A DNA stretch of 64,000 nt, taken from Melioribacter roseus. GTDB taxonomy: Bacteria; Bacteroidota; Ignavibacteria; Ignavibacteriales; Melioribacteraceae. Made by a program: the position numbers and the translations under genes. Shown piece by piece: positions 13,239-49,836 of the stretch (position 1 is its first letter; every line of letters begins with the position of its first letter). The notes beneath the pieces are model-generated. The model searched no databases. It saw only the letters and a list, made by a program, of their open reading frames with translations, and had not been told where the DNA came from. The stretch is taken from positions 1 to 64,000 of the forward strand of contig DYLN01000003.1 of assembly GCA_020722085.1 (NCBI GenBank), given 5' to 3'.

Positions 13239-16200
13239 ATGAAAGCCAAACCTTCTATAATGTTTCTCTTTTTTATTTTAAATCTTGCTTTAGATGCGCA
13301 GGATTTAAAAATTCTTTCATCAACACCGCAGTCGTTGACAATCTTATATACCCCTCAGATTTTAGATACTGCTGTAGTTACAATTTCAGGACAAACCTTT
13401 TACAATTTTAATCTTGCCAATGGTGCATTAAATCCAAGAATAGATGTTGGCAGTCCGCTGCTTCCATTTAGAGAAATAAATGTGGGTGTTCCTAACGAGA
13501 TGGGAAACACAATCAGTGTTAATTCTTCTGAATTTACTACGATGCAGGGCAGGGTAATGCCTGCTTTAGTTGACAGAGGTACGCTTAATCTGTCATTGAC
13601 CGAAGAATACTTGAGGACAAGATATGGTGAACTTGTTGGTTTTGGAGATTATGGACTTGTGCGCGAACTGCCCGTTCAATCAATAAAAATTTTCCCGATT
13701 CAATTTGATGCTGGGGCTAATCAAATTAAAATTTATTCAAGGGTTATTTTTACAATTAATTTTGGCAGCATACCTTCACAGGTTTCTCAAATAAAAGATA
13801 ATAATCTTTCTGGCATAGTGTTAAACTGGAACGTTGCAAAAAATTGGGGTGTAACACCCAAAAAATTACAGAAAGCTTCAGATGATCCTTTTTTCAATCA
13901 AAACAATTGGTACAGATTCGAAGTACCAGCCGAAGGAATTTATAGAATTGACAGAACAATGCTCCAATCAATGGGGATTGATCCAAATACTGTCGACCCG
14001 CGAACGATAAAGATTTATAACAATGGCGGTTATCAACTGCCGGAAAATCCTGCGGCACCAAGACCTGAAGAATTAAACGAAATAGCTGTTTATGTTTCTG
14101 GTGAAGACGACAGCAAATTCGACCAAGACGATTACATCTTATTTTATGGACGCCCGACAGAATTTTGGGAATACAATAAATCATCCAGACAGATTAACCG
14201 AATAAAAAATCCATTCTCTAAGAAAAATTACTACTGGATAACAGCCGGGGGCAGCAACGGTAAAAGAATGGTCCCCGAACCCTCGTTAAATGCATCGAAT
14301 TTTTATTCGCAGCAGACAACACTTGCGTTTGGACAAAATGAGAAAGACAGCGTCAATATCGGTGGTACAGGCAGAGAGTATTTTGGAGATGAGCTTGACT
14401 ACAACACTAAGTCCAGAACATACTTAGTCACTTTAAACAGCATTGTACCGGGAATGCCAATTACTTATCAATTTAGAATAGCAAATGTTGGACCTGTTCC
14501 GATAAATTTTTTCTTGAGTGAATCCAATAACCAAATTTATTCAAGGACTTCTTTAGCCGGCAGTTCAACGTCTGCTTATAGTTTAGGAACCGCTCTTTCT
14601 GGAATCGCAGTTTATAGAGGAAATTTAACAGACGAAAGAAGTGCATTAAAATTTGCAATTGAGACAAACGCTGCAAACGCCCGCGTTGCCATAGATTATT
14701 ATGAAATTAAATACACAAAATATTTGCAGGCTGTAGGAGATGAACTTTTGTTTTTTTCGAAAGATACAACCGCCAATATTCAAATGAATCTTTCTAATTT
14801 TTCCAACAGCAGTATATTTGTGTTTGATATTACGGATTATGCGAACGTAAAACAAATAACCAATGCCGACATAACCGGCGGACAGTGTAATTTTCAAATA
14901 GCCGGACAAGCAGGAAGAGTAAGAAAATTTTTGGCAGTTTGCAGTTCTGCTTTCAAAACCCCCGAAAACATTGCTAATGTTCAAATTACTAACCTAAAAG
15001 CTGATTTGACAGGCACTGAATTTATAATTATCACGGACAAAGTTTTTAAAGATCAAGCGGAAAGACTAAGAGATTATAAGGCAAATCAATCACTGTCGAA
15101 ATTATCGACTTCACTTTTTTATATTGATGATATCTATAATCAATTTTCCGGCGGTTCTTTGGACCCTTCGGCAATCAGAGATTTTTTGAAATTTGCTTAC
15201 GATAATTGGCAGACAAAACCTTTCTATGTACTTCTGTTTGGGGACGGTACTTATGATTATTATAATGTAACCAAGAGATCGAACAATTTTATCCCAGCCT
15301 ATGAAACCGAGGAATCTTTATATGAGATAAGCTCTTATCCGACAGATGATTTTTATGCCAGAATATCAGGCAATGATATAAAACCTGACCTCGCATTAGG
15401 AAGATTGTGTATTCAAAATACGGATGATGCAAAAAACGTAGTTGACAAAATTATTACTTACGAAACTCAATCTGATAAAGGCTTGTGGAGAAACACTGTA
15501 ACATTAGTAGCTGACGATGGACCTGCCGGAACTGGAAATGATGATGGCAGCCTTCACACTGCTCAATCTGAGATTTTATCGCGGAATAAAGTTCCTAAAT
15601 TTTTTGACCAAAATAAAATTTATCTTGCAATGTATCCTACAGTTTATACCGGTTTGGGAAGAAGGAAACCGGCAGTAAATCAGGCAATTATTGATGCAGT
15701 AAATAATGGTACGTTGCTGTTAAATTTTATTGGTCATGGTAGCCCCAATGTATGGACGCATGAATCTGTGTTTGAAAAAGCTACTACAATACCACAGCTA
15801 AAAAACAACAACTATTTCTTTGTAACTGCAGCCACCTGCGATTTCGGAAGATACGACGACCCTTTCGATCAAAGTTCAGCAGAGATTTTAGTTAATAAAG
15901 GCAATTCCGGTGCTATCGGTGCTTTTACAGCAGCAAGACTAGTCTACTCCAATTTGAATGAAGCCATTAATGATTCTTTTTATACTAATTTGTTTAAATA
16001 TCAAGATGGGTTTGGTTTGCCGGTCAGAATTGGCATGGCGTACTTTTTAACAAAGCAGTTTAGGACTTTTGAGAACGATGAAAAATACAACTTGTTTTGC
16101 GATCCGACTTTAAGGTTAGACCAGCCGAGAATACCTGCCAGCATTGATTCTGTTAATCACATGGTTCTCAACAATGATGTTCAAATAAATGCCTTGGGCG

Positions 16201-17189
16201 AAGTTAATATTAAAGGCGCGGTACGAAACGAAGATAATTCAATAAATAATAATTTTAATGGCAATGCAATTATTAGTGTGTATGATTCAGACCGGCAGGT
16301 TTATATAAAAGAAATGAATTATACGGTTACGATGCAAGGTGGGTTAATTTACAGAGGACGTGTTAATATAAATGACGGCACGTTTCAAACCGGATTTGTT
16401 GTGCCAAAAGATATTTCTTATGAAAATAAAAACGGAAAAATTATTACCTACATTTATAATGATAATAATGATGGTGTAGGATCAACCAATAAAATAATTG
16501 TTGGCGGAACAAATCAAAATATACCTAACGACGGCAACGGTCCGGATATAGAAATTTATTTTGACAATTTTTCAAATTCCGTATCTTACATGGTCAATCC
16601 GGATTTTACATTGCTTGTAAAGCTTTCAGACCAGACAGGACTAAATACAACCGGAACTGGAATCGGTCATAAACTCGAAGGAATACTTAACGACGATGAG
16701 AACAATCCGATAGACTTTTCTAATTTTTTTGTGGGGGACCTTAACTCAAACGGCAAGTCTGGTGTTATCCAGTATAAATTTACGGGTTTTGAACCGGGCG
16801 ACTACAATATAAGAATTAAAGCCTGGGACGTGTTTAATAATTTATCCATGAAGGAAGCAAATTTTACTGTGGTGCATGGAAATGATCTTGTTGTAAAGGA
16901 TGTGGTAAATTACCCGAACCCCTTTGCAACCAACACAACTTTTACGTTTCAGCATAATCTAACAAAACCGATAAATGTAAGAATTAAGATTTACACAATT
17001 GCAGGAAGAATGATTAAACAAATTGAAGAAGATTACGTAACCGATAAGTTTGTAAAAATTGATTGGGACGGCAGAGATGCCGATGGGAATTCAATAGCAA
17101 ATGGAACATACCTTTATAAATTGGTTGTTGACTCTTCGGATGGTGAGTACCACCAAAATGTACTTGGAAAATTGGCTGTAATTAGATAA
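13239..17189 (+). CDS. porU: Type IX secretion system sortase PorU-like C25 peptidase carrying its own C-terminal domain
   Basis: C25 catalytic His in FIGHGSPNVWTHE (CAT 15735) and Cys in TAATCDFGRYDDP (TGC 15837); C-terminal YPNPF...GTYLYKLVV...GKLAVIR; porV directly downstream. Confidence 0.88.
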   Translation: MKAKPSIMFLFFILNLALDAQDLKILSSTPQSLTILYTPQILDTAVVTISGQTFYNFNLANGALNPRIDVGSPLLPFREINVGVPNEMGNTISVNSSEFTTMQGRVMPALVDRGTLNLSLTEEYLRTRYGELVGFGDYGLVRELPVQSIKIFPIQFDAGANQIKIYSRVIFTINFGSIPSQVSQIKDNNLSGIVLNWNVAKNWGVTPKKLQKASDDPFFNQNNWYRFEVPAEGIYRIDRTMLQSMGIDPNTVDPRTIKIYNNGGYQLPENPAAPRPEELNEIAVYVSGEDDSKFDQDDYILFYGRPTEFWEYNKSSRQINRIKNPFSKKNYYWITAGGSNGKRMVPEPSLNASNFYSQQTTLAFGQNEKDSVNIGGTGREYFGDELDYNTKSRTYLVTLNSIVPGMPITYQFRIANVGPVPINFFLSESNNQIYSRTSLAGSSTSAYSLGTALSGIAVYRGNLTDERSALKFAIETNAANARVAIDYYEIKYTKYLQAVGDELLFFSKDTTANIQMNLSNFSNSSIFVFDITDYANVKQITNADITGGQCNFQIAGQAGRVRKFLAVCSSAFKTPENIANVQITNLKADLTGTEFIIITDKVFKDQAERLRDYKANQSLSKLSTSLFYIDDIYNQFSGGSLDPSAIRDFLKFAYDNWQTKPFYVLLFGDGTYDYYNVTKRSNNFIPAYETEESLYEISSYPTDDFYARISGNDIKPDLALGRLCIQNTDDAKNVVDKIITYETQSDKGLWRNTVTLVADDGPAGTGNDDGSLHTAQSEILSRNKVPKFFDQNKIYLAMYPTVYTGLGRRKPAVNQAIIDAVNNGTLLLNFIGHGSPNVWTHESVFEKATTIPQLKNNNYFFVTAATCDFGRYDDPFDQSSAEILVNKGNSGAIGAFTAARLVYSNLNEAINDSFYTNLFKYQDGFGLPVRIGMAYFLTKQFRTFENDEKYNLFCDPTLRLDQPRIPASIDSVNHMVLNNDVQINALGEVNIKGAVRNEDNSINNNFNGNAIISVYDSDRQVYIKEMNYTVTMQGGLIYRGRVNINDGTFQTGFVVPKDISYENKNGKIITYIYNDNNDGVGSTNKIIVGGTNQNIPNDGNGPDIEIYFDNFSNSVSYMVNPDFTLLVKLSDQTGLNTTGTGIGHKLEGILNDDENNPIDFSNFFVGDLNSNGKSGVIQYKFTGFEPGDYNIRIKAWDVFNNLSMKEANFTVVHGNDLVVKDVVNYPNPFATNTTFTFQHNLTKPINVRIKIYTIAGRMIKQIEEDYVTDKFVKIDWDGRDADGNSIANGTYLYKLVVDSSDGEYHQNVLGKLAVIR

Positions 17190-17236: not shown

Positions 17237-18403
17237 ATGAAACGCATTTTGGTAATTGCATTCGTATTATTATTGATTTACGGAAAGGTAGGAAGGATTT
17301 TCGGTCAGGGTGTTGGTGAAACGGCAGTACCTTTTCTTCTCTTAGCTCCAGACTCAAGGGCAGGTGGCATCGGAGAATCCGGCGGCGGTTTGGCTGATAA
17401 TTCTGCTGCAATTTTTTGGAACCCTGCCGGTATAGCATTTCAATCCGGCTCCGAAGTTTCCATCACTCACAGTAACTGGCTTCCGCAGTTCAACCTTGAC
17501 TTATTTTACGATTATGCAACATACCGCCAATACATTGATGACTTAAGCGGAAGTGTTACTGCAAGCGTCACTTATATGAACTTTGGCGAGTTTGTTAGAA
17601 CAGGCTCAAACAGTCCTGAGCCACTCGGTACATTCCGCTCTTTTGATGCAGCGCTAACGGTTGGATATGCTACAAAACTGAGCACCGATTGGGGTCTCGG
17701 CTTCAATTTTAGACTTATTCACAGCCGCCTTTCGGATAAACCGACTGAATCCGAACAGGGCAAGGGTGTAGCAACTTCGGTTAGTTTTGATATTGGTGCA
17801 ATGTGGCGGCCCGAACATCTTAACCTTCCCCTTATAGGAGATTTCGGCAACCAACTCAGTATTGGAGTTAATCTCAGTAATATCGGTCCTAAAATATATT
17901 ACATCGATCAGGCACAAGCAGATCCTATCCCTACAAACTTCAGACTGGGTTTTGCAGTAAGACCGTTTGAAGATGACTATAATTCGCTAACATATACATT
18001 AGATTTTTCTAAGTTGCTTATTGGTAAGCAGGATACAGTCAACGGAAGAGACGAATTTTATAAAGCAATATTTACCTCCTGGGCTGACGAACCGATTAGT
18101 CAGGAACTGCGCCAGGTGCAGACTTCAATGGGGCTGGAGTATTGGTACGGACGTCCGGAAGATTTTATGTTTGCTATAAGAGCAGGCTTCTTTTATGAAG
18201 ATCCTTCCTATGGCAATAGAAAATTCGTTACACTCGGTGCCGGTATAAGGTACGATTTGTACGGATTCGATTTCAGTTATATTACTACGGATGTGTTTAA
18301 AAACGGTGCAAATCATCCGCTCTCAAACACACTTAGATTCACTTTATTAATTGGCTGGGGCGGCAAACCTAAAGTTGAAAAAGGCTTTCCACGCGGAATA
18401 TAA
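17237..18403 (+). CDS. porV: PorV/PorQ-family outer-membrane protein (T9SS)
   Basis: N-terminal FLLLAPDSRAGGIGESGGGLADNSAAIFWNPAG typical of PorV; downstream of porU. Confidence 0.87.
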   Translation: MKRILVIAFVLLLIYGKVGRIFGQGVGETAVPFLLLAPDSRAGGIGESGGGLADNSAAIFWNPAGIAFQSGSEVSITHSNWLPQFNLDLFYDYATYRQYIDDLSGSVTASVTYMNFGEFVRTGSNSPEPLGTFRSFDAALTVGYATKLSTDWGLGFNFRLIHSRLSDKPTESEQGKGVATSVSFDIGAMWRPEHLNLPLIGDFGNQLSIGVNLSNIGPKIYYIDQAQADPIPTNFRLGFAVRPFEDDYNSLTYTLDFSKLLIGKQDTVNGRDEFYKAIFTSWADEPISQELRQVQTSMGLEYWYGRPEDFMFAIRAGFFYEDPSYGNRKFVTLGAGIRYDLYGFDFSYITTDVFKNGANHPLSNTLRFTLLIGWGGKPKVEKGFPRGI

Positions 18404-18409
18404 AAATAA

Positions 18410-21400
18410 ATGAATATGAAAATTATCTCTCTCTTTTTCTTGATAGGATTGGGCAGTTTATCTGCCCAATCTTTTACAGGCAAATTAAATTATTTCCCTC
18501 AATCGCATCCGAAATTAATTTCATCTCAGGATACCGTGCGTATTCTTGCTGTGATGGTGGACTTTCAACAGGATGATGATGCTAATACATACGGCAACGG
18601 CAAGTTTGGTTCTATCTATTCAAAAAATTACGGTAATACAATTATTGACCCGCCGCCTTTTAATGCTGATTATTTTTCCAATCACCTGGAATTTGCAAAA
18701 AATTATTTCAGAAAAGTTTCCAACGGTAAACTGAACATATCTTATAATATTCTGCCTAATGTAATAACTGTTTCTAAAATAATGAGGGAATATTCTCCTC
18801 CTCCAACTGCTCCTAACCAGTTAACAAATCTTGGCACTTTCGCTCAGGAAGTCTGGCAGCTTGCTTCACAGCAGAATCCCTCATTTGATTTTAGCAGGTA
18901 CGATTTGTTTGTAGTTTTTCATGCCGGCGTTGGAAGAGATATTCAATTGCCCGGCAGTTTGGGTACCGAACGTGATCTCCCTTCGGTTTATTTGGGGCTT
19001 AGATCTCTCCGGTCAATTTTCGGCGAGCAGTTTGATGGGTTCCCTATAAGCGGCAATTTCAAAATTAGAAATACTGTTATTCTCCCATCAACTGAATCAA
19101 GAGAAGTAAAACAATTAAATACTACTGTTTTATTTCAGATGAGCATTAATGGTTTAATTGCAGCAAGTATCGGCAGTTATCTTGGACTGCCCGATTTATT
19201 CAATACGGAGACCGGAAGAAGCGCAATTGGCAGATTCGGTTTAATGGACGGCGCTTCTATCTTTGCTTACAGCGGAGCTTTCCCTCCAGAACCGTCTGCC
19301 TGGGAAAAAATTTATCTCGGATGGCTTGATCCGGTAACGGTAAGTATTCCATCTGCAGAAAAAAATATTAATCTCGTTACCCGACTTGCCGGAAATTTGT
19401 CGGATACCACTATTCTTAAAATACCTATTAATTCGACTGAATATTTTTTAATAGAGAACCGCCAGCGTGATGTTAATAAAGACGGCTCTATTGTCAGTTA
19501 TATTATTAACGGACAAACATTGCAATTCAGGTCCACAACCGACCAGCAAGGATATGAATGGTTCGCAGCAGATACTTTAAAAGGAGTAGTAACGGATGTA
19601 GATGAATTTGATTGGGCAGTGCCCGGACAGATTGACGATACCTCACATTACACCGGCGGGATAGTTATCTGGCATATTGATGAAAATGTTATTGCCAACA
19701 AAATATCGGATAACAAAATAAATACGGATATTTATCACCGCGGAGTCTCCGTTGTTGAAGCTGATGGTATTCCCGATATCGGTCAATTGTTTACAGATAT
19801 TTTCGGCGAACAGGTAGAAGGTCAGGCAACTTATGAAGATATGTGGTATAAAGGTAATCCTGCTAAGTTTTATACAAATAAATTTGGACCTAATACTAAA
19901 CCGAACTCAATGTCATATTCCGGGGCTAATAGCTTAATCACGTTGTATGACTTTTCTGTTTCGAGCAATAAAATGTCATTTAAGTTGAGTTTTTCCGACA
20001 GTAATTTGATTTTAAGAGCTGGTACAAAACTGAATTTGAGCGGTAAACTTAATGCGATTGTAGCTCCATTCAACGGAACCGGCGATCATTTATATTTGAT
20101 GACAGGAAATATTTTGGCTAAAATCGATAATTCAGGCAACCTAATAAAAACTTTTGACGATTTTAGTAATCAATATCCTGCTGCTGTGCAGGTAGGAAAT
20201 ATTGAATATGTGGTTGGCTCGTTAAATGGAAAACTTAATCTCCTTATTTCTGACGGCTTAATCGATAACCTAAAAACTTATGATTTGACTTCGCAGGCAG
20301 CTTCACCAATTACACTTAATGAAAACAATAATAGATGGTATATTATTTTTGGCACACAAGATGGGAATATAGTCAAGATGGATTTGGAAGATTTGGCGAA
20401 TAAAGCGGAGTTAACTTCCGCTGACTACACTAAAGTATCTGATCAACCTGTACTTCAAGTGTGCAGCAGCCCTGGTGATACTTATTTTTCGTTTATTACA
20501 CTGCATACCTTTTCGGATGCAAATAAAGCTCGTATTAATTTTTCTGCTGAACTGAAAAAATGTGCGCTTAGCAAAGATGCAGACGGCAGCTATGCTAATA
20601 TTGTTTTAGCAGGTGATAATACTTTTTTCGTTATACAAAATGGTATAGTAGCAACTCTTTTTAATATACGAACTGACTCGGCTGTTTCCGATTTTTCTGT
20701 TGCAAACTTATTCGATGATGGTTCGAATTATATTCTTTTTAATAACGGCAGCAAACTCGAGGCTTATAATCTTGAAGGAGCAAAAGCCGATTTTTTCCCT
20801 TTTACCGAACCATCTAATTCTAATTTTACAGGTTTGCCGTTGACTATTAAATTTGGAGATCAATCCCGAAACTACATTTTAGCATTTGCCGAGAATGGAA
20901 ATATATATGCTGTAAATCCCGCGACGGGGAAAACAGTTTTACCTTTCCCTTTATCCACGGGTATTTCAGTATCGACCGTGCCGATTTTATATAGGTATTT
21001 GTTAACTTCATTTCCTCCGACAGACCAGACTTTATTGAGTCTGGTGGACGATTCAAATAATTTTTATACGTGGTCATTAGGCAAATACTCTGAAGCAAAT
21101 ATTTGGGCAGGTAAATTTTCAAACTCTTTGAATAATAGTTTTGCTGAAGCTGCTGGTAGATCGAATCAGCCGACAGATTTTTTCCCGTCTGAACGGGCTT
21201 ATAATTGGCCTAATCCGGTTTACGGTAATCGAACAAACATCCGTTACTATGTTGCCGAGGATTCGAATGTAAGAATTAAAATATTTGATCTGGGAGGCGA
21301 CCTTGTTGCGGATTTAACAGATAATGCAGCCGGCGGTTTTGACCACGATACAATATGGGATGTTTCCAATGTTCAAAGCGGAATTTATTTTGCTCACTTG

Positions 21401-21463
21401 GAAGTGACTTCTGCAAGCGGAAAAACTGCAAGTAAAATTATTAAGGTGGCTGTTGTTAAGTAA
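18410..21463 (+). CDS. M6 (immune inhibitor A)-like secreted protein with degenerate active site; T9SS C-terminal domain
   Basis: M6 context LGLPDLFNTETG...GRFGLMDG, but expected HExGH reads ASIGS; C-terminal YNWPNPVYGNRTNIRYYV...GIYFAHLEV...KIIKVAVVK. Confidence 0.8.
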   Translation: MNMKIISLFFLIGLGSLSAQSFTGKLNYFPQSHPKLISSQDTVRILAVMVDFQQDDDANTYGNGKFGSIYSKNYGNTIIDPPPFNADYFSNHLEFAKNYFRKVSNGKLNISYNILPNVITVSKIMREYSPPPTAPNQLTNLGTFAQEVWQLASQQNPSFDFSRYDLFVVFHAGVGRDIQLPGSLGTERDLPSVYLGLRSLRSIFGEQFDGFPISGNFKIRNTVILPSTESREVKQLNTTVLFQMSINGLIAASIGSYLGLPDLFNTETGRSAIGRFGLMDGASIFAYSGAFPPEPSAWEKIYLGWLDPVTVSIPSAEKNINLVTRLAGNLSDTTILKIPINSTEYFLIENRQRDVNKDGSIVSYIINGQTLQFRSTTDQQGYEWFAADTLKGVVTDVDEFDWAVPGQIDDTSHYTGGIVIWHIDENVIANKISDNKINTDIYHRGVSVVEADGIPDIGQLFTDIFGEQVEGQATYEDMWYKGNPAKFYTNKFGPNTKPNSMSYSGANSLITLYDFSVSSNKMSFKLSFSDSNLILRAGTKLNLSGKLNAIVAPFNGTGDHLYLMTGNILAKIDNSGNLIKTFDDFSNQYPAAVQVGNIEYVVGSLNGKLNLLISDGLIDNLKTYDLTSQAASPITLNENNNRWYIIFGTQDGNIVKMDLEDLANKAELTSADYTKVSDQPVLQVCSSPGDTYFSFITLHTFSDANKARINFSAELKKCALSKDADGSYANIVLAGDNTFFVIQNGIVATLFNIRTDSAVSDFSVANLFDDGSNYILFNNGSKLEAYNLEGAKADFFPFTEPSNSNFTGLPLTIKFGDQSRNYILAFAENGNIYAVNPATGKTVLPFPLSTGISVSTVPILYRYLLTSFPPTDQTLLSLVDDSNNFYTWSLGKYSEANIWAGKFSNSLNNSFAEAAGRSNQPTDFFPSERAYNWPNPVYGNRTNIRYYVAEDSNVRIKIFDLGGDLVADLTDNAAGGFDHDTIWDVSNVQSGIYFAHLEVTSASGKTASKIIKVAVVK

Positions 21464-21493: not shown

Positions 21494-24400
21494 ATGAAAA
21501 AGGTCTTTATTTTTCTTTTTAGTCTTCCAATAATTACTGCTGCGCAGTTCAATGACTATAATCCAAATTACGAGTGGCTTACAATTAAGGGAAAACACGT
21601 TTATGTTCATTTTCATCCCGAAGCCGAAAGAACTGCTATGACGGTTGCTAAAATTGCAGATGAAGTTTGGGGACCGATTACATCATTATATCGTTATGAA
21701 CCCGAGCCGGTGCACTTTGTAATAAAAGATATTGATGATTACTCAAACGGCGCCACTTATTTTTTTGATAACAAAATAGAAATCTGGGCTTCGGCATTGG
21801 ATTTTGATTTACGCGGTTCTCATAACTGGCTGCGTAACGTAATTTCTCATGAGTTTACTCACATGGTGCAGATACAAGCCGGAATGAAAATGGCTAGGAC
21901 TCTGCCCGCTTTCTATTTCCAGTTTCTGAATTATGAAGAGAAAAGAAGACCGGACATACTCTACGGTTTTCCAAATGTAATTGTTACTTACCCGGTTCCC
22001 ACCGTAAATATACCGGCATGGTTTGCTGAAGGTACTGCTCAATATATGCGTAAAGAATTTAACTACGATAACTGGGATACACACCGGGATATGATTTTGC
22101 GCTGTTATGCGCTCGATAATAAACTGCTTACATGGAATCAGATGGGAGTATTTGGAAAGACAAGTCTGGGCAATGAATCCGTCTATAATGCCGGCTTCGC
22201 GTTGACAAGATATCTTTCACAAAAATACGGTGAAGATAAACTAAGAGAAATAACATATAAGCTGGGGAGCATTTTTAATTTTACAATTGATGCTGCTTTC
22301 AAGGATGTTCTCGGCAAAGACGGAAATGAAATTTATGATGAATGGGCATCCTTCTTAAAATCCGATTATCAAAAAAGAATTAAAGATGTCGAAGCAAATA
22401 AAATTGAAGGTGAATTAATAGAAGACGAGGGTTTTGGCAATTTCTATCCAGTCTTTTATAAAAACGACAAAATTATTTATGTGAGCAATAAAGGCAATGA
22501 TTACCTGTCGTTATCTTCAATATATTTGAAAGATTTGAAAACCAAAAAAACAAGAAGGCTCGTTAGTCTTGTTAATTCAACTGTCAGCCCTATTCCTGGC
22601 ACAGATAAAATTATTTACTCTAAATTAAGCGACCGTAATCCTAAGTGGGCAAACATTCATGATATTTATGTTTACAACATTCAAAACGATGAAGAAACCC
22701 GGCTTACTTTTGGCTTGAGAGCAAATAATCCTTCCGTTTCTTACGATGGGAAAAAGATTGTATTTATTTATCAAAAGGACGGCACAACAAACGTGGGAAC
22801 TGTTGATATTAACGGGAAGAATTTTAAAAGGCTTACTTTTTTTGAACACGGCGAACAAGTATTCAATCCTAAATTTTCACCGGATAACAAGTACATAATT
22901 TTTGATTATTCTTATGCTAACTCAAGAGACATTGTAAAAGTAGATACCTCCGGTTCTGATTATTCCGTTGTCATCAAAAACGGGTGGGATAACCGAAATC
23001 CTTCGTTTACAAAAGACGGCAATTTTGTTTATGCATCCGACATAACAGGCATATTCAATATTTATAAATACAATTGGATGGATAAAAAAAGTACCCAATT
23101 GACAAATGTTATTGGCGGAGCTTTTATGCCCGCTGTAGATGAGGATAATAATTTAATGTATTCAGGCTATACCTCTGACGGATTTAAGTTGTTCTATTTA
23201 TCAGCAGAAAATCAGAAGTCGGTTGACAGTACGAAGAAATATATTTGGAAAAAAGATCCCCCCTTGGGTGAGGATAAACCAAACGGCGATATTGATAACT
23301 TCAACTTAAAATCTCTTGTTAATTATAACGATTACGATGCGCCGGATTATAAACCAGAGAAATACACAGGCTTCTTTTCAAAAATGAGCTTCTTTCCGTT
23401 CATTAGATATGATAATTATATCACTACAAATACATTTGCCGATAGAATCAAACCTGGACTTTACGTGGCTTCAAGCGATTATTTGAATCGTTTTAGTCTG
23501 TTTGCCGGCGGATCAATAAATAAAAAATTCGAGAGGGATTTGTTTTTAGAATTTGATTATCGCGATCGCCTACCGCTGTTAAGCAGCTTTGGAATTTATC
23601 CTGAAATGTCGCTCGAATTATACAGCTTAAGCAGAAAAACAACTACTCCGTTAATATTTGATCCGTTCGACCCGACTCAAAATACGACCACGGATGTTAC
23701 TTACAATTTGTTTGAAGTTGACCTTGCCGCAAAAAATAAAATTTTTACTGAAGGTAACAAACTGGAAACCAGATTCATCTTTAGTCAATATTCTGCTACA
23801 ATCGGTAGTTTTATTTTTCCGAATACAAGCATTCTTTACCCGACAACAAACGATACATATTTAATCGGAAGGGATATTCAAATAAAATTTAACCATGACG
23901 GAGTTACTCCTACTGCTGACAGCGATATTAATCCGATCGGCAGACGATTCGAAATAAAATATGATTATGAATTTAACAGATACAATAAAGACAACACATA
24001 CGAAGTTGTAGACGGAATACTTAAACCCGTCTATCAAAATTATGATTTTCATAGATTCGAGTTGAACTGGAAAGAATTTATTGAATTGACTAAGGATCAC
24101 ACGTTAAATTTTACATTTAGAGCGGCAACAATTTTTGGGCCTGCGGTTCCCGACTTTTTTGATTTCTATCTTGGCGGGTTGGTCGGTATGAAAAGCTATC
24201 CTTTTTATTCGGTCAGTGGCAATGAACTTGGCTGGCTGAATGTTTCATACAGATTTCCTTTATTTAAGAATATCGATTCACGGTTCGGGCAGTTATATAT
24301 TGACAAGGTTTTCCTTTCAGTCTACGGCGATTTCGGCGATGCATGGACAGGCGATTTTCCTTCTCTCAAGAGTTTTAAGAAAGGATTCGGCACCGAAATA

Positions 24401-24559
24401 CGCGTTAAAATGAATTCGTTTTATCTTTTTCCAACAAGCTTTTTCTTCGATGCTGCTTATTCGTTCGACAAATTCAGCAGAACTATTCTTAATGAGAATG
24501 TAACCTACGGCAAGGAATGGAGTTTCTACGGGGGCATTTTATTCGACTTTAGCTTTTAA
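21494..24559 (+). CDS. Zincin (HExxH) + TolB/PD40-like propeller + outer-membrane beta-barrel protein, paralogue of 2476-5532
   Basis: HEFTH (21848-21862), PAWFAEGTAQY, propeller repeats (NPKFSPDNKYIIFDYS), C-terminal barrel ending GGILFDFSF. Confidence 0.8.
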   Translation: MKKVFIFLFSLPIITAAQFNDYNPNYEWLTIKGKHVYVHFHPEAERTAMTVAKIADEVWGPITSLYRYEPEPVHFVIKDIDDYSNGATYFFDNKIEIWASALDFDLRGSHNWLRNVISHEFTHMVQIQAGMKMARTLPAFYFQFLNYEEKRRPDILYGFPNVIVTYPVPTVNIPAWFAEGTAQYMRKEFNYDNWDTHRDMILRCYALDNKLLTWNQMGVFGKTSLGNESVYNAGFALTRYLSQKYGEDKLREITYKLGSIFNFTIDAAFKDVLGKDGNEIYDEWASFLKSDYQKRIKDVEANKIEGELIEDEGFGNFYPVFYKNDKIIYVSNKGNDYLSLSSIYLKDLKTKKTRRLVSLVNSTVSPIPGTDKIIYSKLSDRNPKWANIHDIYVYNIQNDEETRLTFGLRANNPSVSYDGKKIVFIYQKDGTTNVGTVDINGKNFKRLTFFEHGEQVFNPKFSPDNKYIIFDYSYANSRDIVKVDTSGSDYSVVIKNGWDNRNPSFTKDGNFVYASDITGIFNIYKYNWMDKKSTQLTNVIGGAFMPAVDEDNNLMYSGYTSDGFKLFYLSAENQKSVDSTKKYIWKKDPPLGEDKPNGDIDNFNLKSLVNYNDYDAPDYKPEKYTGFFSKMSFFPFIRYDNYITTNTFADRIKPGLYVASSDYLNRFSLFAGGSINKKFERDLFLEFDYRDRLPLLSSFGIYPEMSLELYSLSRKTTTPLIFDPFDPTQNTTTDVTYNLFEVDLAAKNKIFTEGNKLETRFIFSQYSATIGSFIFPNTSILYPTTNDTYLIGRDIQIKFNHDGVTPTADSDINPIGRRFEIKYDYEFNRYNKDNTYEVVDGILKPVYQNYDFHRFELNWKEFIELTKDHTLNFTFRAATIFGPAVPDFFDFYLGGLVGMKSYPFYSVSGNELGWLNVSYRFPLFKNIDSRFGQLYIDKVFLSVYGDFGDAWTGDFPSLKSFKKGFGTEIRVKMNSFYLFPTSFFFDAAYSFDKFSRTILNENVTYGKEWSFYGGILFDFSF

Positions 24560-24574
24560 CATGGGAGTAGAGTC

Positions 24575-25441
24575 ATGGGAAAATTTTTGTTTTTTATTTT
24601 TACTTTATTTGCATTGATTGTGCATGCACAGGAAAATAATATTACACAATTAACCGGGATTCTGAGCTTTGATTCTTACACTGCATTTCAGAACAGCGAA
24701 AAAGTTCATCTTGAAAATAAGGAGATGAACCCAAAATTAAAATCTCCTTTTTTAGGTGGTCTTCTCTCTGCGGTAGTGCCGGGCACCGGTGAGTTTTACG
24801 CAGACAGTTATTTAAAGGCGGGAATATTTTTTGCCGCTGAAGTTACCGCAATTACAATTGGATTAATGTATGATAAGAAGGGAGACGATCAAACGGTTTT
24901 CTTTCAGAATTATGCAGACGAACATTGGAGTGTGGTTAGGTACGCACAGTACGCATTGGATCATTTAGTCCCTGAAGATCAACGCGGTTCTTATCAATTG
25001 TTTTATTCCGACAGGCAAAATCTGCCGCCGTGGGAACAAGTTAATTGGTCAGAACTCAATAGAATGGAACGCGATATAGGCGGCTATTACTCGCACACTC
25101 TGCCGCGGCACGGCGATCAACAGTATTATGAAGAAATAGGGAAATACCCGCAGTTTAATCAAGGATGGGATGATGCCCCTTCCCAATTTAATTATGGGGA
25201 TCCGCTTACTGCTAATTTTCACTACTATTCTGGACTTCGCGGCAAAGCGAATGATTATTATAATGTAGCTGCTAAAGCAGTCATAGTAATTTTTGTAAAC
25301 CATATAATAAGCACAATTGATGCTGTCTGGACAGTACATCGTTATAACAGTCATGTCAAAATCTCTGCCGACCTCGGAAAAACAACTTTTGGAATTAGGA
25401 CGGAATATTATCCTAAATTAAATTTGCAGTATCAGTTTTGA
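24575..25441 (+). CDS. DUF5683-like membrane-associated protein
   Basis: Signal peptide; KSPFLGGLLSAVVPGTGEFYADSYLKAGIFFAAEVTAI. Confidence 0.55.
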   Translation: MGKFLFFIFTLFALIVHAQENNITQLTGILSFDSYTAFQNSEKVHLENKEMNPKLKSPFLGGLLSAVVPGTGEFYADSYLKAGIFFAAEVTAITIGLMYDKKGDDQTVFFQNYADEHWSVVRYAQYALDHLVPEDQRGSYQLFYSDRQNLPPWEQVNWSELNRMERDIGGYYSHTLPRHGDQQYYEEIGKYPQFNQGWDDAPSQFNYGDPLTANFHYYSGLRGKANDYYNVAAKAVIVIFVNHIISTIDAVWTVHRYNSHVKISADLGKTTFGIRTEYYPKLNLQYQF

Positions 25442-47616: not shown

Positions 47617-49836
47617 TTATTTTTTAATGACGGCAAGTTTTGCAGTGGCTACATTATTTGCTTCTTCATCGAATGCGGTGATTATGTAGATCCCGGAAGG
47701 AACCGATCTGCCTTCTAGGTCCTTGCCGTTCCAGAAAGCAACTCTGCCGCCGGGTGAAGCAAAGTCCGCAATCAGTTTGCCGCTCATATTAAAAATTTTG
47801 ATCTGACTGTTTTTTACTAATCCGTCGATAGTGATTGTAACAGTATTTTCATTTTGCAGAAGAACGGGATTCGGGTAGACAAATAATTCACTGAAACTCT
47901 CTTGCGGCTGCATTGAAGAAGTTGTGACTGAAGACAAACCAAAGTCGGTACCAATATAAACGATGCCGTTTTTCTGGTCTATGGCAAGGCTTTTGATATT
48001 ATCGTTCGCAATAGGACTGTTTGAAGCAGTATAATGCTCTAACAATTGAATTCCATCCTGTGAGAGCAAATAAACGCCGTTGTTCGTTCCGACCCATTTT
48101 TGGTTTAAGGGATCGACAGCTATTGATGATATTGTTTGATTTCTGAGTGCAAACCCTACCGAATTTGTAATTGATGATGCCGGTTTGGAAACATCAGTAA
48201 TCAAACTTATTCCCTGATTTGTTCCTACCCACAATTGTCCGCGCTTGTCCACAGCTAATGCGGTAATTGCATTGCTTATTAAACCATTGCTTTCAGTTAA
48301 ATAACCCTGAGTATCATCATTCAGATTTGTAAGCGTTCCGTTCTCATTAAAATAATATAAGCCTAAGGTGCCTTTAGTTACAGCGAACCATTTTGTATCA
48401 AATTGGTCAACAGCCAGCTTTCCAATTAATGAACTTTCTGTAATGGGAAGATTTGTAAAGGTGTAATTGATTAAATCTCCTGAAGTTGTGAGTACACTCA
48501 GCGGAGTTTTTGAAACAGACAAAAGATTAGTCATCCATGCATTCCCTTTCGAGTCGGCTTTCACATCATAAATTACCACAAAATTAGGATCATCAGGAAT
48601 TCCGGTTAAGGAAGAATTAAATGCACTGTAGGTCTGAAACGTTCCGTTCTTAAATACGGTTACACCCTTACCCCAATTGCAAAAATATTTTGTATTATCC
48701 GGTGCTGCGTAAACATTATGAAATGCATTTGATAAGAAGGCATCCGTATTGTTGACGTTGTATACCTTCCAGGTGGTGCCGTCAAATTCAAAAACTCCTA
48801 CGCCGTAAACATCGCTTCCCGTACCAACCCATAATTTGCCGTCGTTGTCAACGGTAAGACTTGCAAAATTGTTGGTTTCGGGTCCATTCGGAAACAAAAA
48901 AGAAACACTGCCGTTTTTGTATTTTAAAATTCCGCTTGATGTGGCACAATAAATCGTTCCATCATCTTTTACCCTAATTGATTTTATTTGAATATTGTTG
49001 GCGGAATAAACTTCTGTCGCGATATTATTTTTCAGGGAATATATTTTTTGATTTGCAACGGCGTATAAGGTTGAACCTAAAGAAGCAAAATCATTAATAT
49101 TTATTCCTGTCAATGAATAAGTATTCCAGATATTTCCGACAAGTTCGAACAATCCGTTATTTGTAGCAGCCAAAATTTTATTACCGAATTTTCCTACGGA
49201 GTTTACTGTGGATGCACCTATTTGAGAATTTGTATAATAGTTATCCCAGGATTCCGGTGCTGATAAATTATTCTGTCCTTCTTTTTGAACAGCTATTCCG
49301 AGTTCGGTTACTGCATATATCAATTTATCTTTGTAAGCATATTTAATTTTTGTCTCTGAAGGAAAGGTGCCGAGTTTCAAAAAAGAATCGTAAAAAGAGC
49401 CGTTAGCGGTATTAATTAAAGAAATTCCAAAATCGGTTGAAACGAAAGCAGTATCGTTAATTATAAAAATCTGATTGATTTGTTTTTGACTTTTTGCGCT
49501 GTTATAAATCTCAAATACTCTAAGTAAGCTATTATACAGGGGATTGTATGCGTTTATATAACCTTCCTGTGAGCCGACCCATATTTTGCCGCTGCCGTCA
49601 ACAGCAATCGATGTTAAAATCTGGCTGTTCAACCCGTCAGCTTTATTTAGAATTTTATAAGTGCTGTCGGAATTACTAAACCGGAATATGCCGCCGGAAG
49701 CAACAGCCCAAAACCCGTTGTCTGTGATTGCAACTGCGCTGGTAGTTTTCATATCTGAATAATTTTTCCATATCCCGATTTTCTGTGCAAAAAGCGGTAA
49801 AGAAATAAAGAATAACAGGACTGATTTTCTAATCAT
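47617..49836 (-). CDS. Two-component-regulator-type propeller protein with T9SS type A sorting domain
   Basis: Repeats KIWVGSQEGYINAYN / KLWVGTGSDVYGVGV / QLWVGTNQGISLITD; C-terminal FVYPNPVLLQNENTVTITI...GIYIITAFDEEANNVATAKLAVIKK. Confidence 0.85.
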   Translation of the reverse strand: MIRKSVLLFFISLPLFAQKIGIWKNYSDMKTTSAVAITDNGFWAVASGGIFRFSNSDSTYKILNKADGLNSQILTSIAVDGSGKIWVGSQEGYINAYNPLYNSLLRVFEIYNSAKSQKQINQIFIINDTAFVSTDFGISLINTANGSFYDSFLKLGTFPSETKIKYAYKDKLIYAVTELGIAVQKEGQNNLSAPESWDNYYTNSQIGASTVNSVGKFGNKILAATNNGLFELVGNIWNTYSLTGININDFASLGSTLYAVANQKIYSLKNNIATEVYSANNIQIKSIRVKDDGTIYCATSSGILKYKNGSVSFLFPNGPETNNFASLTVDNDGKLWVGTGSDVYGVGVFEFDGTTWKVYNVNNTDAFLSNAFHNVYAAPDNTKYFCNWGKGVTVFKNGTFQTYSAFNSSLTGIPDDPNFVVIYDVKADSKGNAWMTNLLSVSKTPLSVLTTSGDLINYTFTNLPITESSLIGKLAVDQFDTKWFAVTKGTLGLYYFNENGTLTNLNDDTQGYLTESNGLISNAITALAVDKRGQLWVGTNQGISLITDVSKPASSITNSVGFALRNQTISSIAVDPLNQKWVGTNNGVYLLSQDGIQLLEHYTASNSPIANDNIKSLAIDQKNGIVYIGTDFGLSSVTTSSMQPQESFSELFVYPNPVLLQNENTVTITIDGLVKNSQIKIFNMSGKLIADFASPGGRVAFWNGKDLEGRSVPSGIYIITAFDEEANNVATAKLAVIKK

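Follow-up and report, generated by a model that had tools for sequence, protein, structure and literature searches.

A predicted M6-like pseudo-metallopeptidase encoded beside porV in a type IX secretion gene cluster

Why would a bacterium keep, among genes of its type IX secretion system (T9SS), an intact reading frame for a peptidase-like protein whose zinc motif has been erased? The question is posed by one gene, here called M6i, in the window (the whole stretch of 64,000 nucleotides analysed). An initial annotation had described it as an open frame of 1017 amino acids for an M6-like protein next to porU and porV, with HExGH replaced and a T9SS-type C-terminus. The frame is indeed uninterrupted, both neighbours were identified by NCBIfam models, and 6 bases separate the porV stop from the M6i start.

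13239 to 17189, + strand: porU, T9SS sortase (NF033707, 969.6 bits, cut-off 420)
17237 to 18403, + strand: porV, T9SS shuttle (NF033710, 259.4 bits, cut-off 250)
18410 to 21463, + strand: M6i, putative T9SS-exported M6-like pseudo-metallopeptidase, 1017 aa (NCBIfam NF052323)

M6i belongs to NF052323, a curated equivalog model named "T9SS-dependent M6-like inactivated metalloprotease", which it matches along its full length (residues 6-1017); its score of 1087.7 bits is well above the cut-off, 600. Nothing in the sequence sets it apart from that family, whose name already says that it is inactivated and T9SS-dependent. The pseudo-peptidase family itself is thus known from NCBIfam, and since its core fact, the inactivation, was already familiar to curators, the novelty of that part is low. 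What is added here is the genomic context of M6i, namely its linkage to porV, the pairing of a live with a dead protease, and its persistence without PorU. In the open-access literature we found no paper naming the family, an absence that does not prove that none exists, and no paper on an M6 protein together with PorU or PorV.

18410 to 18469, + strand: signal-peptide-like N-terminal segment MNMKIISLFFLIGLGSLSAQ, judged by eye from the translation
18551 to 19480, + strand: M6 peptidase fold region (TIGR03296, residues 48-357, E 1.1e-19)
19163 to 19201, + strand: erased zinc motif ASIGSYLGLPDLF, residues 252-264, with the HE..H sites now A252, S253 and S256, and D262 retained
19235 to 19252, + strand: Met-turn-like segment FGLMDG, residues 276-281 (M279 in 96% and D280 in 100% of orthologues)
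20030 to 21190, + strand: weakly conserved region, about residues 541-927 (BamB chains in a profile search, E 0.006)
21206 to 21442, + strand: type A T9SS C-terminal domain (CTD), residues 933-1011 (PF18962 and TIGR04183)

The N-terminus reads as hydrophobic with SLSAQ at its end, and the CTD scores above threshold with both models (PF18962, 34.5 bits, cut-off 27; TIGR04183, 32.1 bits, cut-off 23). The M6 domain profile TIGR03296 reaches 71.4 bits against a cut-off of 110.8; judged from its sequence, M6i is homologous to M6 peptidases, yet it is no member of that profile under the curated rule. Mean pairwise identity among orthologues is 50% over residues 40-310, 42% over 311-530, 21% over 540-925 and 44% in the CTD. 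The variable region, in which a Pfam search gave no significant match, is probably a PQQ/BamB-type beta-propeller. Solved structures searched with the M6i protein alone gave no match, and with an M6i profile the matches were limited to BamB propellers (weak) and the PorZ CTD. Single-sequence AlphaFold2 on residues 21-540 gave an unusable fold (pLDDT 30, pTM 0.20).

The replaced motif can be placed with some precision. At this site M6i can be aligned with six active M6-domain proteins of related genomes, two of them gap-free and four with one additional residue following the motif (for example, HEYGHIFGLPDLYD against ASIGSYLGLPDLFN). Relative to these active proteins the first His is Ala, the Glu is Ser and the second His is Ser, so that ASIGS stands where a catalytic M6 peptidase carries HExxH, and the position proposed in the initial annotation was upheld. 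M6i otherwise has the same motifs in the same order as active M6 proteins of the immune inhibitor A type (HAG, GxPDLxD, the Met-turn, ENRQR, IWHID and EADG), including the GxxD and Met-turn positions expected of M6 peptidases, which MEROPS places in the Met-zincin subclan (PMC3890501). It differs from them in the erased HExGH, in several tens of extra residues that separate ENRQR from IWHID, and in the added CTD and propeller-like part. From the HExxHxxGxxD spacing, D262 would be the former third zinc ligand. A scan of the whole protein found no other HExxH, and M6i appears to have lost zinc binding.

The loss is old and shared. The orthologue set (n=124, one per genome) comprises 57 sequences from the same family and order and 67 from the rest of the phylum. 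Among the 58 genomes searched in that family and order 57 carry M6i; in the exception (G025, 98% complete) only a CTD match was seen. HExxH at the M6i site was found in 0/124 orthologues, and a single orthologue (L062) has one elsewhere, HEMAH at residue 139, which is not common to the others. Instead, position 252 is Ala in 96, Ser in 23, Gly in 4 and Thr in 1; position 253 is Ser in 75, Asn in 24, Thr in 14, Gln in 7 and other residues in a few; position 256 is Ser in 105, Asn in 18 and Gly in 1. As all 124 orthologues lack the motif while N247, G248, P261, D262 and L263 are invariant (100%), the loss is not due to chance or base-calling error. Whole-gene dN/dS in close pairs is 0.04-0.10, and within residues 245-285 dN is 0-0.011 against a dS of 0.29-1.30; between the window M6i and the relative closest to it, which are 66% identical, dS has reached saturation and no ratio is given. 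M6i is under strong purifying selection. The view that the replacement reflects recent decay or a sequencing error in the window genome, for which we found no point in favour, was rejected on the universal loss, the open frame and a dN/dS far below 1, and its probability is practically nil. A tree built from six active M6 proteins and 29 M6i sequences, rooted by midpoint only, places M6i in one clade (support 100/100) with no active member within it, a topology that would fit one old inactivation event.

Could M6i still be a peptidase, through another metal site or by catalysis without a metal? M6i has kept D262, the Met-turn and the surroundings of the cleft, and a His stands at position 257 in 59/124 orthologues, but Tyr or Phe also occurs there, and the HE..H sites are nearly always small or polar (A/S, S/N/T/Q and S/N), with His or Glu in 0/124. 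The conserved H171 (HAG) and H422 (WHID) offer no new site either, and other conserved histidines were rejected as an alternative metal site, since active M6 proteins have the same ones. Continued peptidase activity is therefore very improbable. The initial annotation had proposed selection for a non-catalytic role, to be checked by alignment and dN/dS and to be doubted if orthologues kept the motif or a second HExxH occurred; the alignment and rates above support the proposal, and neither a motif-bearing orthologue nor a second conserved HExxH turned up in M6i or the 124 orthologues.

The gene order offers two candidate partners of M6i, the shuttle PorV upstream and, directly 3' of M6i, a second metalloprotease-like protein.

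21494 to 24559, + strand: "PMA", metalloprotease-like protein with an intact HExxH (HEFTH at residue 119, WFAEG 57 residues further), a TolB-type propeller and a C-terminal Phe
24575 to 25441, + strand: DUF5683-like membrane protein, fifth gene of the conserved cluster (PF18935, E 4e-4, under the cut-off)

Gene order was compared in 21 wider neighbourhoods, the window included, and in 60 short loci, two overlapping sets drawn mainly from the window's own order and one other family. In these overlapping sets porV adjoins M6i upstream in 20/21 and 59/60, respectively, which establishes their genetic linkage; PMA follows next after M6i in 14/21 and 60/60. The T9SS link of M6i claimed at the outset is real, and it is tighter to porV than to porU.

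The neighbour PMA raises the possibility that M6i is its regulator or substrate adaptor in a pair of dead and live proteases. In every one of the 60 short loci the adjoining PMA has an intact HExxH, in full-length PMAs a second motif, W(F/L)(A/S)EG, follows at the constant spacing of 57 residues, and pseudo-enzymes among metallopeptidases are known as regulators of active relatives (PMC11266112). However, M6i and PMA are different types of metallopeptidase, and M6i stands without an adjoining PMA in 7/21 wider neighbourhoods. A role specifically for PMA is rather unlikely.

Whether M6i depends on the sortase can be judged from its distribution. M6i was counted in 117 and PorU in 200 of 298 genomes from the phylum; 108 have both, 92 have PorU without M6i and nine have M6i without PorU. 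M6i and PorU co-occur (Fisher p 5e-15), though the genomes are related and the value is no test of independent events. Given the 92 genomes with PorU and no M6i, M6i is not a core T9SS part.

The nine genomes with M6i and no PorU (L166-L171, that is G307, G248, G157, G130, G315 and G113, together with G168, G219 and G277) all belong to one family (f30). As they are 97-100% complete, loss of PorU is likelier than an assembly gap. Against the PorU model they gave CTD-type matches at most, and a PorZ search found none. PorU2 as a hidden partner was rejected after no match in the seven PorU-less genomes tested. All nine retain Sov; the six whose 20-kb neighbourhood was checked keep the porV-M6i-PMA-DUF5683 cluster, and the four in which type A CTD matches were counted have 7-32 each. 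These genomes apparently encode a type IX system without its sortase. The idea that M6i is a partner dependent on PorU is weakened by them; since the nine lack both PorU and PorZ while keeping Sov and M6i, with porV adjoining in the six checked, M6i follows PorV rather than the sortase. Two further PorU-less genomes of the same family with Sov (G197 and G270) have lost M6i too.

In known T9SSs the PorV shuttle serves all type A CTDs (PMC12618676); two barrels of the outer membrane, PorV and PorQ, anchor PorU and PorZ (PMC8545088). Where the gene of a type B substrate adjoins that of a shuttle, the two form a cognate pair (PMC12618676), and by analogy the porV-M6i adjacency may be read as a cognate pair as well, although it could also reflect mere co-expression. 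We favour the reading that M6i is a surface scaffold or adaptor held by PorV, with a probability of about 0.5. From its domains, M6i would be exported by Sec and then pass the Sov translocon by means of its type A CTD. PorV would capture it and hold it as it does PorU, with no release, as suggested by the gene linkage and the persistence without PorU. More speculatively, the M6 cleft, now empty, and the variable propeller-like part might bind a partner or substrate that stays uncut, and M6i might serve as a scaffold or adaptor, perhaps for the adjoining intact metalloprotease PMA. The 92 genomes with PorU and no M6i, the loss of M6i in G197 and G270, and a locus in which M6i has no adjoining porV (L176, in G185) are points against this scaffold model.

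A comparable fate is known from the eukaryotic pseudo-metzincins ADAM22 and ADAM23, which have lost the zinc motif, kept the Met-turn and act as receptors or scaffolds (PMC11266112). They come from unrelated organisms and have another domain layout, and the likeness is one of analogy only. Like PorU and PorZ, M6i is T9SS-linked and carries a CTD, and porU lies in the same gene cluster; unlike these, a C25 sortase and a double propeller, it has a different fold and persists where both are missing.

An alternative is that M6i is just one more cargo protein of the T9SS, in which a dead M6 domain has been put to new use as part of a surface adhesin or binding protein, with its place after porV a matter of co-expression only and no role in secretion. 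Its CTD is of the standard type A, of which the window genome has about 60 matches, M6i is absent from the 92 PorU-positive genomes noted above, and the variable propeller-like part (21% identity) resembles ligand-binding surface proteins. On the other hand, the position after porV is kept across many families and outlasts the loss of porU, and conservation is good in both the M6 part (mean identity 50%) and the CTD (44%). Cargo status is a real possibility, albeit on balance an unlikely one.

A similar layout of propeller-like part plus CTD, together with the position beside porU and porV, could also suggest that M6i stands in for PorZ in its own lineage and supplies the attachment complex with a propeller-plus-CTD protein.

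47617 to 49836, - strand: PorZ (PF21544, 63.6 bits; PDB 5m11, E 5e-43, residues 21-737)

A true PorZ, matched by 5m11 along its whole length, is, however, encoded in the same window, far from porU and porV, and since the window genome has its own, M6i is no PorZ substitute there. PF21544, the PorZ N-terminal propeller, was searched for in M6i and not found, and M6i, PorU and PorZ occur together in 105/298 genomes. Replacement of PorZ is refuted for the window genome and hardly credible as a general account.

The linkages of M6i and its survival without PorU and PorZ provide a testable handle on a T9SS surface role outside the well-studied lineages, and the PorU-less genomes with M6i a handle on how a T9SS works without a sortase. 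As a side observation, the TIGR04183 scores of the M6i CTD (35.5 bits in this comparison) and the PorZ CTD (36.1 bits) are below those of most cargo CTDs in the same genome; low scores might mark the CTDs of retained components. Contigs C139 and C158 of G000 show identical match scores at a constant offset, which suggests a duplicated stretch in that assembly.
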